From NCBI GenBank assembly GCA_023382435.1, contig JAHDVS010000004.1:49292-89895 (forward strand): a DNA stretch of 40,604 nt, written 5' to 3'. This document shows positions 7,358-36,326 of this stretch, piece after piece; the first letter of the stretch is position 1; each line of letters opens with the position of its first letter. This stretch comes from Thermoleophilia bacterium. Its GTDB lineage: Bacteria; Actinomycetota; Thermoleophilia; Gaiellales; Gaiellaceae. The notes beneath the pieces were generated by a model that searched no databases, was not told the DNA's origin, and worked only from the letters and a program-made list of their open reading frames with translations. The position numbers and the translations under genes are program-made.

Positions 7358-7431
7358 GGGGGCGTAGTTCAGCTGGTTAGAACGCCGGCCTGTCACGCCG
7401 GAGGTCGCGGGTTCGAGTCCCGTCGCTCCCG
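7358..7431 (+). tRNA. tRNA-Asp (GTC)
   Basis: 74 nt cloverleaf. The acceptor GGGGGCG (7358-7364) pairs with CGCTCCC (7424-7430), discriminator G7431. The D-arm contains AGCTGGTTAGA, the anticodon stem CCGGC/GCCGG encloses loop CTGTCAC with anticodon GTC at 7392-7394, and the T-arm has GTTCGAGTC. CCA is not encoded. A restriction-modification cassette bounded by inverted repeats follows directly, so this tRNA may mark an integration hot spot. Confidence 0.95.
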
Positions 7432-26351: not shown

Positions 26352-26423
26352 GGGCCGGACAGGTCCGGCCCCTACGGGTTCGGGGTGTGCTCGTCGGCGT
26401 AGGGGCGGGTCATGACCCGCCCC
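26352..26423. repeat. Pair of GC-rich palindromes (GGGGCGGG family)
   Basis: GGGCCGGAC (26352-26360) and GTCCGGCCC (26363-26371) form one hairpin. At 26402-26423 an 11-bp arm GGGGCGGGTCA is followed at once by its complement TGACCCGCCCC, preceded by GTA as at 19276. The 26311-26438 stretch holds these elements and no gene that I can see. Confidence 0.75.
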
Positions 26424-26438
26424 GGGCGGCCCCGGTAC

Positions 26439-26531
26439 CTACCGGGCCTTGAGCTTGCGCTTCTCGCGGGCCTTCTTCTTGCGCTGGCGGTCGGCCCGCC
26501 AGCGGCGAATGGATCTGGAGCCTCTGGCCAC
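26439..26531 (-). CDS. 30-aa extremely basic peptide, ribosomal-protein-like
   Basis: GTG 26531 to TAG 26439. The product is VARGSRSIRRWRADRQRKKK then AREKRKLKAR: 16 Arg/Lys in 30 residues. Such short polybasic peptides resemble small ribosome-associated proteins (for example bS22/Thx-type), but I cannot name one and no Shine-Dalgarno is visible. It is divergent from the hydrolase at 26568 with 36 bp between. Confidence 0.45.
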   Translation of the reverse strand: MARGSRSIRRWRADRQRKKKAREKRKLKAR

Positions 26532-26567
26532 GAAGGGGACTCTAGCGAAGGCTGGTACGTTTCGGTC

Positions 26568-27827
26568 GTGCCGCTCGAGCCGAGCCGGACCGTGGCCGAG
26601 CTCCGGGAGCTCCGGGAGCTGACCGGGGACGCGGAGGGCGCCCAGCGCGTCTGCTGGACGGACACGTGGGCTCGCGCCCGCGCGTGGATGCGCGAGAAGC
26701 TGGGGGAGCTGCCCGTCGAGGTCGAGATCGACGAGGCGGGGAACCAGTGGGCGACGCTGCGCGGCGGGTCGGAGCGGGCGGTGCTGATCGGGGGTCACAT
26801 TGACTCGGTTCCGAACGGCGGGTGGCTCGACGGCGCGTTGAATGTCCTGGCGGGGCTCGAGGTGCTGCGCCGGCTCGCCGGGGAGGGCACCCCTCCCGTG
26901 AGCGTCCGTCTCGTCGACTGGGCCGACGAGGAGGGCGCGCGATTCGGGCGCAGCCTGCTGGGCTCGAGCGCGTGCTCTGGCACGATGGCCGACCAGGAGC
27001 ACCTGCGCACGCTCACGGACCGCGATGGGATCGCGCTTCCCGACGCCCTCGTCGAGCACGGGGTCGAGCTCGACCGGATGCTCGAGGCAGGGCGGCAACT
27101 CGACTCGGCCGCGGCGTACCTCGAGCTGCACATCGAGCAGGGGCCAGTGCTCGAGTCGCTCGGCTTGCCGCTGGGCGCGGTGTTGGGGACGTTCGGCGTC
27201 GAGCGCCACCGGATCGTGTTCCGTGGTCAGGCCGCGCACGCGGGCTCGACGCCGATGGAGCAGCGCCGTGATGCGCTCGCCGGGGCGGCTCGGCTCGAGC
27301 TCGAGCTGCGGGAGATCGCCCGGCGGGCCGGCGGAGGCGCCGTCTGCACCATGGGCGGCGTCGTCACGAAGCCCGGGATCGCGACGTCCGTCGTCGAGGA
27401 GGCTACCTGCCTGCTCGACCAGCGCCACCTCGACGCCGGAACGCTCGCCACGATGCTCGGCGAGGCCCGGGCGGCGAGCGAGCGGTTCGCAGTGGAGGAA
27501 GGACTCGAGGTGGAATGGGAGCCGATCTGGGGGATCCAGCCGATCCTGTTCGACGAGACGCTGTTCGGGTTCTGCGACGATGCGATCCGGGAGGTCGTGG
27601 GGGCCTCCCATCGTCTTTCGAGCGGCCCGCTGCACGACGCTGCCGAGACTGCTCGGGCCGGAGTCCCGACGGTCATGATGTTCGCCCAGAGCCTCCGCGG
27701 GCTCTCGCACACCAAAGCGGAGGACACGCGCCCGGAGCACATCGAGCTGTCCGTCCGCGCGCTCGATCGGCTCGCTGACCGTGCCATTGCCTGGGTCGCC
27801 GGCGGCGGCGGGCGCTCCTCCACCTGA
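26568..27827 (+). CDS. M20-family allantoate/N-carbamoyl-L-amino-acid amidohydrolase
   Basis: 419 aa from GTG 26568 (VPLEPSRTVAELRELRELTG); the frame is open upstream but that part overlaps the palindromes and the basic peptide. Metal-binding motifs of the hydantoinase/carbamoylase M20 group: IGGHIDSVPNGGWLDGALNV, DWADEEGARFG, ELHIEQGPVLESLGLPLGAV, the dimer-domain GQAAHAGSTPMEQRRDAL, and a C-terminal SGPLHDAAE then SLRGLSHTKAEDT. It removes a carbamoyl or ureido group from an L-amino acid or allantoate. Exact substrate not decidable. Confidence 0.92.
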   Translation: MPLEPSRTVAELRELRELTGDAEGAQRVCWTDTWARARAWMREKLGELPVEVEIDEAGNQWATLRGGSERAVLIGGHIDSVPNGGWLDGALNVLAGLEVLRRLAGEGTPPVSVRLVDWADEEGARFGRSLLGSSACSGTMADQEHLRTLTDRDGIALPDALVEHGVELDRMLEAGRQLDSAAAYLELHIEQGPVLESLGLPLGAVLGTFGVERHRIVFRGQAAHAGSTPMEQRRDALAGAARLELELREIARRAGGGAVCTMGGVVTKPGIATSVVEEATCLLDQRHLDAGTLATMLGEARAASERFAVEEGLEVEWEPIWGIQPILFDETLFGFCDDAIREVVGASHRLSSGPLHDAAETARAGVPTVMMFAQSLRGLSHTKAEDTRPEHIELSVRALDRLADRAIAWVAGGGGRSST

Positions 27828-27971: not shown

Positions 27972-28007
27972 CACGCGGTGGCGGGTCTCCGGCCCCGCCA
28001 CCGCGTG
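27972..28007. terminator. 14-bp perfect hairpin downstream of the hydrolase
   Basis: CACGCGGTGGCGGG (27972-27985) and CCCGCCACCGCGTG (27994-28007) pair fully around the loop TCTCCGGC. It lies 145 bp after the hydrolase stop and before the convergent 27-aa peptide ORF. No T-tract follows, so a factor-assisted terminator or a structured element is possible. The rest of 27828-27971 shows nothing I can assign. Confidence 0.5.
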
Positions 28008-28046: not shown

Positions 28047-28130
28047 CTACGGGCCCCACGGGGCCTTGCCGAGAAAAGCCGCAAGCATCCCAAGGGACGC
28101 TGCAAGCGTCAGAAGACGAATCCTGAACAT
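28047..28130 (-). CDS. 27-aa hydrophobic signal-like peptide, candidate pheromone precursor
   Basis: ATG 28130 to TAG 28047, divergent from and 81 bp upstream of the XRE/TPR regulator. The peptide starts MFRIR, continues as a hydrophobic core (LLTLAASLGMLAAFLG) and ends KAPWGP. The basic start, hydrophobic middle and short polar tail resemble Firmicutes pheromone precursors exported by Sec or PptAB-like routes. AAAGGA lies 11-16 bases upstream and TATACT (28197-28192) is a possible -10. Its position beside a TPR receptor is the main argument; it may also be a plain small membrane peptide or chance. Confidence 0.45.
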   Translation of the reverse strand: MFRIRLLTLAASLGMLAAFLGKAPWGP

Positions 28131-28169
28131 ACCGGGACCATCCTTTTGTCCGAAGTGGCAACGGGATAG

Positions 28170-28199
28170 CCCCGGGCCCGGGGAATAACCGAGTATAGA
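28170..28199. promoter_or_regulatory. Divergent promoter region with 14-bp palindrome
   Basis: CCCCGGGCCCGGGG (28170-28183) is a perfect palindrome. Next to it AGTATAGA gives TATAGA (28194-28199) as a possible -10 for the regulator on the plus strand, and TATACT (28197-28192) as a -10 toward the small peptide on the minus strand. Regulator translation starts at 28212 behind AGGGGGG. Possible operator; unproven. Confidence 0.4.
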
Positions 28200-28211
28200 C
28201 CAGGGGGGCAG

Positions 28212-29516
28212 ATGCCGCGACAAAAGTCAACACACGTCGACAGCCCCGAAGCGGTCGGGCGGCGGCTTCGGGCAGCACGTGAGCGGGTCGGTCTCAGCCA
28301 GCGGCAGCTCTCGTTCCAGGGCTGCTCCCCCGCCTACATCTCGCGGATCGAGGCCGGCGAGCGGATTCCGTCGCTCCAGCTGTTGCGCGAGCTCGGCCGC
28401 CGCCTGGGCGTCAGCGAGGACTTCCTCGCCACCGGCGAGGAGCGGCCGCGGGGTCGGTCGCCCCTGCTCGTGGACGCCGAGCTGGCGCTGCGCCTCGACG
28501 ACGTCGAGTCGGCGCGGCCGCTGTACGAGCGGCTGCTCGCCGAGGCGACAGCCGACACCGAGCGCGCGGACGCCCTCGAGGGGCTTGGGCGGATCGCCGT
28601 ACGCGACGGTCGCGAGGCGGAGGCGATCGAGCTGCTCGAGCGCGCGCTCGAGCTCGCCGGCGGCGATCCCGCCGCGCGGCCGTCGCTCGCCGAGACGCTC
28701 GGGCGCGCGTACGGGACGCTGGGTGAGCTGGCGCCGGCGATCGCGATCTTCCACCACTGCGTCGAGCGCTTCGAGGGAGACGGCGACCCCGTGCGCTACG
28801 TGCGCTTTGCCTGCCTGCTCGGCTACGCCCTCACGGACAGCGGCAGCTTCGCCGAGGCCGAGCGCGTCGTCGCCCGCGCGCTCGAGGTGGGGCGCGAGGT
28901 CGAGGATCCGTACACCCGTGCGCGCCTCTACTGGTCGCGCTCGCGGCTCCTCGTCGAGCAGGGCCAGGCTGGCCAGGCGCAGAGCTATGCGTTGCGCGCG
29001 CTCGAGACGCTGCGGGCGACCGAGGACACCTACGCGCTTGCGCGTGCGCACCAGCTGCTCGCGGGTATCTACCTGGACGCCGGACGCGCGTCGGAGGCGG
29101 CCGACCTCCTGCGCGACGGCTGGCCGCTGATCACGGCGACCGCCTCACCGGTCGAGGTCGCGCACTACCGCGTCGAGGAGGCCCGGGCACTTGCCGCGCT
29201 CGGCCGGCAGGAGGAGGCGGCGGCGCTCGCGATGGAGATCACCCCCCGGCTCGGCGAGGCCGAGCCGCTCGAGGGAGGCCGCGCGTTCGTGATCCTCGGC
29301 GGTATCTTCGGCGATCTCGGCGACCCGGCCCGGGCGCGCGAGCTCTACGAGCTCGCGATCGAGCTGCTCGAGGCGCAGCCGCCGACCCGGCATCTCGTCG
29401 AGGCCTACAAGGGCCTCGCGCAGCTGCTCGAGGCAGAGGGGCGGCCGGACGAGGCGCTCGGGACCCTCAAGAGGGCGCTCGGGGTTCAGGAGCGGGCCGG
29501 CAGGGCCCTGACGTAG
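28212..29516 (+). CDS. XRE-family HTH regulator with TPR domain (RRNPP-like architecture), copy 1
   Basis: 434 aa from ATG 28212. Residues 12-75 form an XRE helix-turn-helix (VGRRLRAARERVGLSQRQLS, CSPAYISRIEAGERIPSLQL, LGVSEDFLATG). Residues 85-430 are about eight TPR-type helical pairs (ARPLYERLLAEATADTERAD, GREAEAIELLERALELAG and so on). This is the layout of RRNPP peptide receptors, in which the TPR superhelix binds a short peptide and changes DNA binding, but similar proteins in actinobacteria are mostly uncharacterised. A 27-aa signal-like peptide is encoded divergently. A second copy of similar layout is at 36346-37665. Confidence 0.88.
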   Translation: MPRQKSTHVDSPEAVGRRLRAARERVGLSQRQLSFQGCSPAYISRIEAGERIPSLQLLRELGRRLGVSEDFLATGEERPRGRSPLLVDAELALRLDDVESARPLYERLLAEATADTERADALEGLGRIAVRDGREAEAIELLERALELAGGDPAARPSLAETLGRAYGTLGELAPAIAIFHHCVERFEGDGDPVRYVRFACLLGYALTDSGSFAEAERVVARALEVGREVEDPYTRARLYWSRSRLLVEQGQAGQAQSYALRALETLRATEDTYALARAHQLLAGIYLDAGRASEAADLLRDGWPLITATASPVEVAHYRVEEARALAALGRQEEAAALAMEITPRLGEAEPLEGGRAFVILGGIFGDLGDPARARELYELAIELLEAQPPTRHLVEAYKGLAQLLEAEGRPDEALGTLKRALGVQERAGRALT

Positions 29517-29628
29517 CACGCCGCGACGGTCGACGCCGCGGCGTCGGGTATGATTGCGGCGGGCAGGGGGTCTGCCCGCTGCGCGCCTCACCCATCTGAT
29601 TCCTGGCGGCGCGCCTGCCTTGCGTCAC

Positions 29629-32073
29629 ATGCAAGAAGCGACATCGCACTCGACCGTTGCGTCGCATCAGCTCGACGAGCTGGTCGCGGGTGCCCGGGCG
29701 GCCGCGGAATGGGCCGGTGAGCCGTTCCTCCGCCCGGACGAGGACGCGGCCTCCGCGCTGGCGCCGGGCCAGGCACGTCGGCGGGCGCTCGACGCCGCCC
29801 TGGCCGAGATGGCGGCCGGCCGGCGTTTTCCGTCGCCCGAGTGGAGGGTCGAGTTCGCCCTGATGCTCGGCCTCGAGCGGGTGCTCGCCGAGGAGGCGCC
29901 CGGCCTCGCGTCCGGGACCGAGCTTCGCCGCCACCAGATCGACGCGCTGGCGGGGATGCTGACCGAGCTGATTGCCCGCAACGAGAGCGCGGGCTCGGTG
30001 AACGAGGACGCGAACGGCGCGCTCACGGATGTCGAGGCCGACGCCGACGAGGACGAGGAGGAGCTCGACGAGCTGGAGCCGGACGTCGAGGACGAGCCGC
30101 CCGCGCCGGAGGATCCCGGCGCCGAGCGCCGCTTCCGCTTTCGCCACCCCACCGCTTCGGGGAAGACGATCGCCGCCGCGGGCTTCGTCGAGGCGGCGCG
30201 AACGATGGGAGTCCTCATCCTCACCCACCGCCGCCTGCTCGTCGACCAGTTCAATCGTGACCTCACGACCGAGGGCTACGGTGCGCGCTTCTCCGAGCCT
30301 GTCCTCCGCGGCACCGAGCCGCTGCGGCCGAACCCGATCACGATCCAGACGTACGCGTGGTTCGCGCGGCACGTCGGCTCGCTCAGCCACACCGCCTACC
30401 AGCTCGTCATCTGCGACGAGGCGCACACGGCGCTGGGCGAGAAGACGAGCGCGGCCATCCGCACGCTCCCCGAGCCGATCTTCATCGGGATGACGGCGAC
30501 CGAGCAGCTGATCGCCAAGCAGGTCTCCGACGTCTTCCCCGCCTCGGTCGACGACCTCCCGCTCGGCGACGCGGCCAGGCGCGGCCTGATCGCGCCGCTG
30601 CGCTGCCTGCGGGTGCCGCCGGCGACCGCGATCTCCTCGGTCCCGATCGTCGGCGGCGACTACGACCAGGATGCGCTCGCCCGGATCCTCGACCACGAGC
30701 TGATCAACCAGGCGGCTGCCAGCCTCTACCGCGCCCGCTTCGACGCCACGCCGGGGATCGTCTACGCGGCGGGTGTCGACCACGCCTACAACCTCGCGCG
30801 CGAGTTCAGGGCAGTCGGCCTGAAGGCGGAGGCTGTCAGCGGCCGGACGCCTCCGCTTCGTCTCGCGGAGACGCTCGCGGCGTACGAGCGTGGCGAGATC
30901 AACGTGCTGATCAACGCCCAGCTCCTCGCCGAGGGGTGGAACTCCCCGCGGGCTACGGTCTGCATGCACCTCGCACCGACCGCGAGCCGCCGCGTCTACC
31001 AGCAGCGGATCGGCCGCGTGATGCGCACGCATCCCCGCAAGGAAGCGGGGATCATCGTGGACTTCGTCGATCCGGGGGCGACGCACACCGAGCGAACGGT
31101 GACCCTGCACAGCCTCCTCGACTCCGACTTCTACCGTCCCGGCGCGAGGGTGACGCCCGCCCCGCGCCGGCGGGTACAGCGTCGCGCCCGGCGCAAGCTC
31201 TCTCCGGCCACGTGGCTGGTGCCTGTCACGCCGGATGCCCGGCGGCGGCTGGCCGTGATCGCACGCGAGTGGCAGCGGGTCGACGCGTCCCGCCTCGCCG
31301 GGGACGAGCAGGAGTTGTGGGCGCGCCTGGCCGGGCGCCAGCTTCGCTTCGACGAGCGCCAGGCGTTTGCCGAGAAGCTCGCGCGTGCGAGCCGCGAGTG
31401 CCGGGAGCTGTTCCTGATGAGCTGCGCCGCCGAGAACCCGAACCGACGGCTACGGCTTGCGGCCCTCGGCGACCGCGTGGCGACCACCGTCGACCGGGCG
31501 AGCTTCGACGACCTGGTCACGATCGCGACGTTGGCCCCCACGTGGGAGAAGGACCGCACCGCCGGCGTCCGCGTGCTCCTGCGCGCGCTCGCTGACGGAA
31601 AGGTCGACGCGCCCGAGGACATTCTCGTGCGCTGGACGTGGAAGCTCGCCCGGTCGATGCGGAAGCTTCAGGATCGCCGAGCGAGCGCGGAGCTGCCCGA
31701 CGCGAAGAGGCTGCTCGGCGCGCTTGCGAACTCCCGGGGGCACCGGCACGAGGAGAACGCCGCGCGCCTCGTCAACGTCGCGCTCGAGCAGCCGCTGCCG
31801 GTGGCGGTCGCGCTGCTCGTCTCGGCGGAGGGGTACACGCCGACAGCCCAGCAGCTGATCGAGCGGGCCCGGGCTCGGCTAGGGACGATCTCCGAGATCG
31901 CCGACGCGCTCGCCGAGAACCTGCCGGCGCCGAAGGCACCCAACGCCAAGTCCCGCCGCCGCCGGCGGCGGCGCAAGCGCGACCCGCAGGTCGCCGAGGC
32001 CTCCGCCGGCGAGGCCGGGGACGGCGTGTCGCAGAGCGCGGTGGAGACAGCCGAGCCGATCCAGGCCGCGTAG
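29629..32073 (+). CDS. DEAD/DEAH-box (SF2) helicase with acidic insert
   Basis: 814 aa from ATG 29629; TATGAT at 29549 may be its -10. After a Q-motif-like LRRHQIDALAGMLTELIARN there is a very acidic stretch (VEADADEDEEELDELEPDVE), then motif I HPTASGKTIAAAGF, Ia LILTHRRLLVDQF, II VICDEAHTALGE, III GMTATEQ, and the C-terminal lobe with YAAGVDHAYNLAREF, NAQLLAEGWNSPRATVCMHL and QQRIGRVMRTHPRKEAG. An additional ~330-residue C-terminal part ends in a basic RRRRRRRKRDPQ segment. Nucleic-acid unwinding or remodelling is expected; exact role unknown. Confidence 0.9.
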   Translation: MQEATSHSTVASHQLDELVAGARAAAEWAGEPFLRPDEDAASALAPGQARRRALDAALAEMAAGRRFPSPEWRVEFALMLGLERVLAEEAPGLASGTELRRHQIDALAGMLTELIARNESAGSVNEDANGALTDVEADADEDEEELDELEPDVEDEPPAPEDPGAERRFRFRHPTASGKTIAAAGFVEAARTMGVLILTHRRLLVDQFNRDLTTEGYGARFSEPVLRGTEPLRPNPITIQTYAWFARHVGSLSHTAYQLVICDEAHTALGEKTSAAIRTLPEPIFIGMTATEQLIAKQVSDVFPASVDDLPLGDAARRGLIAPLRCLRVPPATAISSVPIVGGDYDQDALARILDHELINQAAASLYRARFDATPGIVYAAGVDHAYNLAREFRAVGLKAEAVSGRTPPLRLAETLAAYERGEINVLINAQLLAEGWNSPRATVCMHLAPTASRRVYQQRIGRVMRTHPRKEAGIIVDFVDPGATHTERTVTLHSLLDSDFYRPGARVTPAPRRRVQRRARRKLSPATWLVPVTPDARRRLAVIAREWQRVDASRLAGDEQELWARLAGRQLRFDERQAFAEKLARASRECRELFLMSCAAENPNRRLRLAALGDRVATTVDRASFDDLVTIATLAPTWEKDRTAGVRVLLRALADGKVDAPEDILVRWTWKLARSMRKLQDRRASAELPDAKRLLGALANSRGHRHEENAARLVNVALEQPLPVAVALLVSAEGYTPTAQQLIERARARLGTISEIADALAENLPAPKAPNAKSRRRRRRRKRDPQVAEASAGEAGDGVSQSAVETAEPIQAA

Positions 32074-36239: not shown

Positions 36240-36326
36240 CTAGCGGCCGTCTGCCATGCCGGCGCCGAGGACGGCGACGACGAGGGCGAGCGTCACGAGC
36301 AGGATGAGGACGCGAGCCTTGGTCAC
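36240..36326 (-). CDS. 28-aa hydrophobic peptide directly downstream of XRE/TPR regulator 2, candidate pheromone precursor
   Basis: GTG 36326 follows a perfect AAGGAGGTGA Shine-Dalgarno eight bases upstream, 19 bp after the regulator's stop, so it is certainly well placed for translation from the same mRNA. The peptide begins MTKAR, has the core VLILLVTLALVVAVLG and ends AGMADGR. Layout (basic start, hydrophobic core ending LG, short polar tail) matches the peptide at 28047. Alternative: a small membrane protein unrelated to signalling. Confidence 0.6.
   Translation of the reverse strand: MTKARVLILLVTLALVVAVLGAGMADGR

Follow-up and report, generated by a model that had tools for sequence, protein, structure and literature searches.

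An XRE/TPR receptor and a divergent Trp-tailed propeptide gene as a probable RRNPP-like signalling pair in Actinomycetota

We propose, with a probability of about 0.8, that an XRE/TPR regulator and a 27-codon gene divergent from it constitute an RRNPP-like peptide-receptor signalling pair, which is probably the actinobacteria's own version of the peptide signalling of Firmicutes. The locus lies in the window, as we call the whole stretch of 40,604 nucleotides that was analyzed, and its features are collected in Table 1. The small gene shows conservation, a translation signature and a conserved tail unit, the peptide gene is linked to a hairpin and an operator-like site, and the receptor has the architecture expected of its class. 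A first-pass annotation of this DNA had described an HTH plus TPR protein of 434 residues and, with the two starts 81 bp apart on opposite strands, the 27-codon ORF; the former was borne out by its coding sequence and Pfam matches, the latter was found where it had been placed, and the interpretation of the two as peptide signalling is supported by the conservation of the ORF beside orthologous receptors and the family's pN/pS of about 0.32. New beyond that annotation are the leaderless forms, the operator-like palindrome and a second pair in the window.

Table 1. Features of the two receptor-peptide loci, with positions in the window
Feature	Position	Strand	Evidence or remarks
Putative terminator, 14-bp hairpin CACGCGGTGGCGGG...CCCGCCACCGCGTG	27972..28007	-	Behind propeptide gene; no T-run
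Propeptide gene, 27 aa MFRIRLLTLAASLGMLAAFLGKAPWGP	28047..28130	-	Conserved family at same place; purifying selection in relatives
Propeptide Shine-Dalgarno (SD) AAAAGGA	28141..28147	-	Sequence; relatives likewise have a purine-rich SD before the start
Perfect palindrome CCCCGGGCCCGGGG, putative operator	28170..28183		Centred 46 bp before propeptide start
Putative receptor promoter -10, GAGTATA	28191..28197	+	Found ahead of the receptor start, after the palindrome, in several orthologs
Receptor, 434 aa	28212..29516	+	XRE HTH and nine TPR-like helix pairs; Pfam, AlphaFold model
Second propeptide gene, 28 aa MTKARVLILLVTLALVVAVLGAGMADGR, GTG start	36240..36326	-	19 nt downstream of second receptor
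Second XRE/TPR receptor, 439 aa	36346..37665	-	~28% identical to first receptor

Pfam placed HTH_3/HTH_31 at residues 15-72 of the receptor and TPRs at residues ~89-427, and in the AlphaFold model (pLDDT 88.3, pTM 0.70, built from six sequences) an HTH at residues ~12-74 is followed by helix pairs spanning residues 84-431. The protein is, as the receptors of RRNPP systems are, a cytosolic TPR receptor, a class which occurs with or without an N-terminal HTH. Among the solved folds near the model are apo NprR, with Z 23.1 across 346 residues, and Rap in complex with CSF (Z 22.4) or Phr (Z 21.5), and since many unrelated TPR proteins reach the same or higher Z, the fold is consistent with a peptide receptor and is no proof of one. 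Similarly, a profile match to PlcR spans both the HTH and the TPR part (E 4e-11), and generic TPR proteins score as well. In TPR proteins the first helix of each pair faces the groove, and the polar and aromatic residues conserved in the TPR part, R198, R238, W241, S242 and R245, lie largely on first helices; at a guess, they might hold the Trp of the peptide tail or its free C-terminus. The closest relative of the receptor is ~59% identical, and a search of plasmids with the receptor as query gave zero matches and hence no sign of plasmid carriage.

The propeptide ORF runs from ATG to TAG with its SD 10 nt ahead of the ATG, so that the receptor is adjoined, as in RRNPP loci, by an SD-preceded small ORF coding for a propeptide. 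The frame could be extended to an upstream TTG (58 aa); the relatives keep the SD and begin at the position of the ATG. By hydropathy most members of the family have a basic N-region and a hydrophobic segment, which are missing from the leaderless members described below; in 54 of 56 members this basic and hydrophobic stretch is nearly free of acidic residues.

Receptor relatives were gathered from the class, family and phylum of the window and their flanks were read; the named ones come from Thermoleophilia/Actinomycetota metagenome assemblies. The nearest orthologs carry MKLRLAFLCVGMGSLASILGGTWGLPWS, MKVRFIMLAISSAAAASMLGFFGLPWGP, MKIRMALLCLGLGTFAALVGGTPWS and others at the same divergent position, more distant relatives have the tails SLPWGP, EPWGPW, DPWGPH, LFWGP, DWGP and YWP, and in other classes of Actinomycetota divergent ORFs ending in FPWPK, KWPWG, NWPHVP and NWPKH stand beside the receptors. 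In the first survey, for which both strands of whole loci were scanned, all peptides kept were upstream of the receptor, and all were divergent except at four co-oriented loci. We scanned 118 distinct receptors for SD-preceded ORFs of 4-70 aa with Trp within the last six residues and took dinucleotide shuffles as control. A divergent ORF of this kind was present at 74 of the 118 receptors against 3.2 expected from the shuffles, a co-oriented one at 5/118 against 3.0, and none (0/118) in the 450 bp downstream of the receptors. As the conservation of Trp is partly imposed by a scan that requires Trp, a W-free scan was made for SD-preceded hydrophobic ORFs of 20-36 aa, which found one at 58/118 receptors against 0.1 in the shuffles and 0 downstream. 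The Trp tail is present on 54 of these 58 ORFs and so was not created by the search criteria.

The nearest relatives of the window pair are too distant for a dN/dS of its own, and the test of selection therefore used closer pairs from other parts of the family. Thirteen independent pairs of related copies gave pN 0.109 and pS 0.344 for the peptide genes, that is pN/pS 0.32 (Fisher p ~2e-18, with sites treated as independent). The ratio was lower in the last 7-8 codons (0.24) than in the remainder (0.43), two figures that still include the pair L023/L024, which was left out of the 13 on account of indel misalignment. The first-pass annotation had suggested looking for a conserved short ORF and tail beside orthologous receptors, and this is what both scans found; nor was the pair refuted on the points named there as fatal to it, namely a small ORF unconserved, interrupted or without purifying selection. 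About 20 of the 100 receptors in our tree are without a detectable peptide gene, two of these having peptides with a TTG start, and a recognisable peptide gene is absent at L009, L013, L015, L060, L152 and others. A scan that required a hydrophobic leader and W overlooked leaderless and TTG-start ORFs, which were found on reading the upstream sequence. At L027 the receptor is kept and a glyoxalase-like gene occupies the place which the peptide gene has in its sisters L028-L030, so that L027 may possibly be a listener without a signal of its own. A related XRE/TPR receptor with a divergent small ORF was also seen in apparently Streptomyces-like genomes (L112-L117, L122), where the ORFs share a conserved AANxGP-like stretch and have a variable tail without Trp.

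Furthermore, it is the tail that is conserved as a unit. Several lineages of receptors have lost the leader and have at the same spot an ORF of 6-12 codons with a strong SD, as in ATG GCG CCG TGG GGT AGC TGA (MAPWGS), ATG TTG CCG TGG GGT AGC TGA (MLPWGS), ATG GCG CCC TGG GGC TGC TAA (MAPWGC) and ATG TAT CCA TGG GGT TGC TAA (MYPWGC), where P-W-G is constant while third codon positions and stop codons vary. Further leaderless products are MWPWGE, MHPWGS, MYGGRIWP, MYAGRLWP, MRSKLPWW, MRSKTQWW, MREKWPIW and MRDKWPWW. The tail is duplicated at L050 (ETRSGVWPWGS). At L074 GSAGWGP occurs four times in one leaderless ORF, a bacterial signal precursor with several copies; the sister locus L159 carries a pair of leader genes whose products end in GGSAGWGP and GSTGWGP. 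Peptide genes also occur in tandem, three at L042 and two each at L066 and L079; the receptor frame at L066 extends to 855 aa, which may mean a fusion of the XRE/TPR part with a further domain. The 100-receptor tree requires five changes for the leaderless state, at least four of them forced by well-supported branches, which means that leaders were lost or gained repeatedly, and because the leaderless forms are without an export signal some members may act only inside the producing cell. As leaderless relatives and concatemers keep the tail alone, the predicted signal of the window is most likely KAPWGP or APWGP; the earlier proposal of KAPWGP or a slightly longer tail thus comes close to the best available guess, in view of MAPWGS, MLPWGS and the tail-repeating concatemers. 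The window propeptide itself has a leader and is not of the RopB-type leaderless kind, which is represented by L032, L033, L051 and L076.

Six-codon MxPWGx genes were noticed at nine loci (L032, L033, L051, L059, L065, L062, L071, L158 and L161). All have a strong SD and the conserved upstream element GTCAATCGGCGCTTCCTC, and a hairpin stands behind most of them. Such genes are candidates for the shortest functional protein-coding genes.

An exact-pattern search of the 2.73-Mb genome assembly found the palindrome before the propeptide gene at this one place. Most or nearly all members of the window's clade have a GC-rich palindrome whose centre lies at -34 to -47 relative to the peptide start, and as it stays with the peptide gene in both the divergent and the co-oriented layout, it belongs to the peptide gene. 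Other clades have fixed elements of their own, TTGACAACAAATG and GTCAATCGGCGCTTCCTC, at a similar distance from the peptide start, and the receptor may well bind the palindrome and these clade-specific elements. Behind most peptide genes there is a stable hairpin (median z -1.48 versus -0.16 in control stretches). Among the neighbours, an M20 peptidase gene (26412-27827) lies behind the propeptide gene on the opposite strand; it was sought beside the relatives and found at the window locus only, and the gene behind the peptide varies among relatives. A DEAD/ResIII-type helicase gene (29554-32073, +) stands directly behind the receptor and is conserved, mostly at 74-79% identity, only in the window's subclade. 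Since the helicase is limited to the subclade and the peptidase to the window locus, no target gene is proposed, and the neighbour-based search pointed to none beyond the locus itself. The genome encodes three OppA-like (SBP_bac_5) proteins and M50 membrane proteases, both of them general families. The only Rfam match of the window is a tRNA gene (7358-7431, +).

These observations bear on four other explanations. The peptide could be a private intracellular ligand, never passed to other cells and sensed in the producer as a gauge of translation or peptidase activity or as a timer, which we consider unlikely. The leaderless 6-12-codon forms and the concatemers, having no export segment, could work in this way inside the cell, but leaderless peptides of Firmicutes have been shown to act between cells (PMC10518010), and the basic start followed by a hydrophobic segment with hardly an acidic residue, which most members keep, is hard to account for unless the peptide enters the membrane or is exported. 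A small membrane protein, or a hydrophobic toxin held down by the XRE regulator, is a highly improbable product of the ORF. XRE proteins often repress small hydrophobic toxin or membrane-protein genes, and many members are indeed a single hydrophobic segment with a basic start; this segment, which a toxin under XRE control would require, is however dispensable, as several lineages keep the tail alone and others repeat it, and a peptide of six residues cannot be a membrane toxin. Still harder to credit is a leader or attenuator (arrest peptide) governing the gene behind. A short SD-preceded ORF with Trp and Pro followed by a hairpin is what such a device would look like, yet the gene behind differs among relatives and in the window is on the other strand, the peptide gene is read away from the receptor, and neither the tandem copies nor the concatemers fit. 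Lastly, a chance ORF in a region that does hold conserved promoter and palindrome elements is contradicted by the shuffle and downstream controls, by the pN/pS of the family and by the synonymous and stop-codon variation of the six-codon ORFs, and has next to no probability. We rejected the toxin, attenuator and chance readings on the leaderless and tail-repeat forms, the neighbouring genes, and the shuffle and selection results.

The window harbours a second receptor-peptide pair, 8 kb from the first, and in many genomes the two are ~8-25 kb apart. The second propeptide ends in MADGR, a code different from PWGP. Of the genomes of the window's family that were sampled, most contain relatives of this pair, and most of these relatives have a small ORF at the same place with a tail that is typically xDG followed by H, R or G, examples being TWPEGH, SWPDGN and FSDGRD. 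Some show tail repeats, as in SAFDGHSAFDGH and SAFDGHSAFDGHSAFDGNSAFDG, and SAFDGH is found repeated. Three pairs of the second-system peptide genes gave pN 0.13 versus pS 0.42.

As an RRNPP-like pair, the first locus would work in the following manner. The divergent gene would be transcribed as its own unit, giving a precursor in which a basic start is followed by a hydrophobic segment for export and then by the short tail; once exported, the precursor would be cleaved by a membrane protease or signal peptidase, and the tail, most likely as KAPWGP or APWGP, would be re-imported by an Opp-type importer. It would then bind the inner groove of the TPR domain and alter the action of the HTH on the palindrome before the propeptide gene, and the outcome would be a self-regulated density or self-sensing circuit. 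More broadly, we think it fairly likely that Actinomycetota possess their own large and old class of peptide-receptor systems with a Trp-Pro/Gly code, in which one receptor family switches between secreted-leader, bare 6-12-codon and multi-copy precursors, in which unrelated PWGP-like and xDGH-like codes adjoin each other in the window genome, and whose six-codon genes would rank with the smallest functional protein genes on record. The window locus supplies a defined receptor together with a predicted signal, which is quick to synthesise and test. Since the ORFs of some relatives hardly exceed the tail, the signal has been delimited by evolution, and much guesswork about the cleavage site is removed. 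Leader loss, tail repetition and flips of orientation within one receptor lineage make the family useful for studying how such codes evolve. Furthermore, the hosts are mostly metagenome-derived bacteria, and a signal peptide might help in their cultivation.

To our knowledge, no peptide ligand is known for the NsdA-family or other actinobacterial XRE/TPR regulators. The window receptor scores 70.7 bits against the NsdA-family TPR regulators (NCBIfam NF053720), below the curated cut-off of 75, and in the TPR part only. The surveys of RRNPP systems that were consulted looked at Firmicutes and viruses (PMC10075063, PMC9765709, PMC12700828), the signals described for Actinomycetota are mainly small molecules (PMC10075063), and we found no report of an actinobacterial RRNPP-like system in the open literature, most subscription journals lying outside the scope of that search. 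The RRNPP(A) systems of Firmicutes (PlcR-PapR, NprR-NprX, PrgX-cCF10, Rap-Phr, AimR-AimP) resemble the window in their receptors with an N-terminal HTH and C-terminal TPRs, except that Rap, unlike the window receptor and the other RRNPP receptors, is without an HTH; the window receptor is predicted to have a fold close to those of NprR and Rap. Both have an adjoining SD-preceded propeptide gene which encodes a basic-hydrophobic leader and a short tail. The window family differs in its host phylum, in the Trp-Pro/Gly code of its tails (PWGP, WP, WW), in the presence of leader, leaderless and concatemer precursors within one receptor family, and in the palindrome before the peptide gene. From the sequences, the window pair would work as RRNPP pairs do, and its receptor may share descent with the Firmicutes receptors or may have converged on them. 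The Rgg-SHP and ComR-ComS systems of streptococci likewise have a short hydrophobic precursor beside, and often divergent from, an XRE/TPR receptor, and ComS signals have a WW motif; on the other hand, no close sequence relationship of the receptors was seen, the window has a GC-rich palindrome, and the phyla differ. In the RopB-LCP systems, peptides of 8-10 residues are translated leaderless beside an Rgg-type receptor while sister clades use leader-bearing SHPs, and LCP families are reported from Firmicutes (PMC10518010). The window family departs from them in that its ORFs go down to six codons and its leaderless lineages are nested among leader-bearing ones with the same PWG core.
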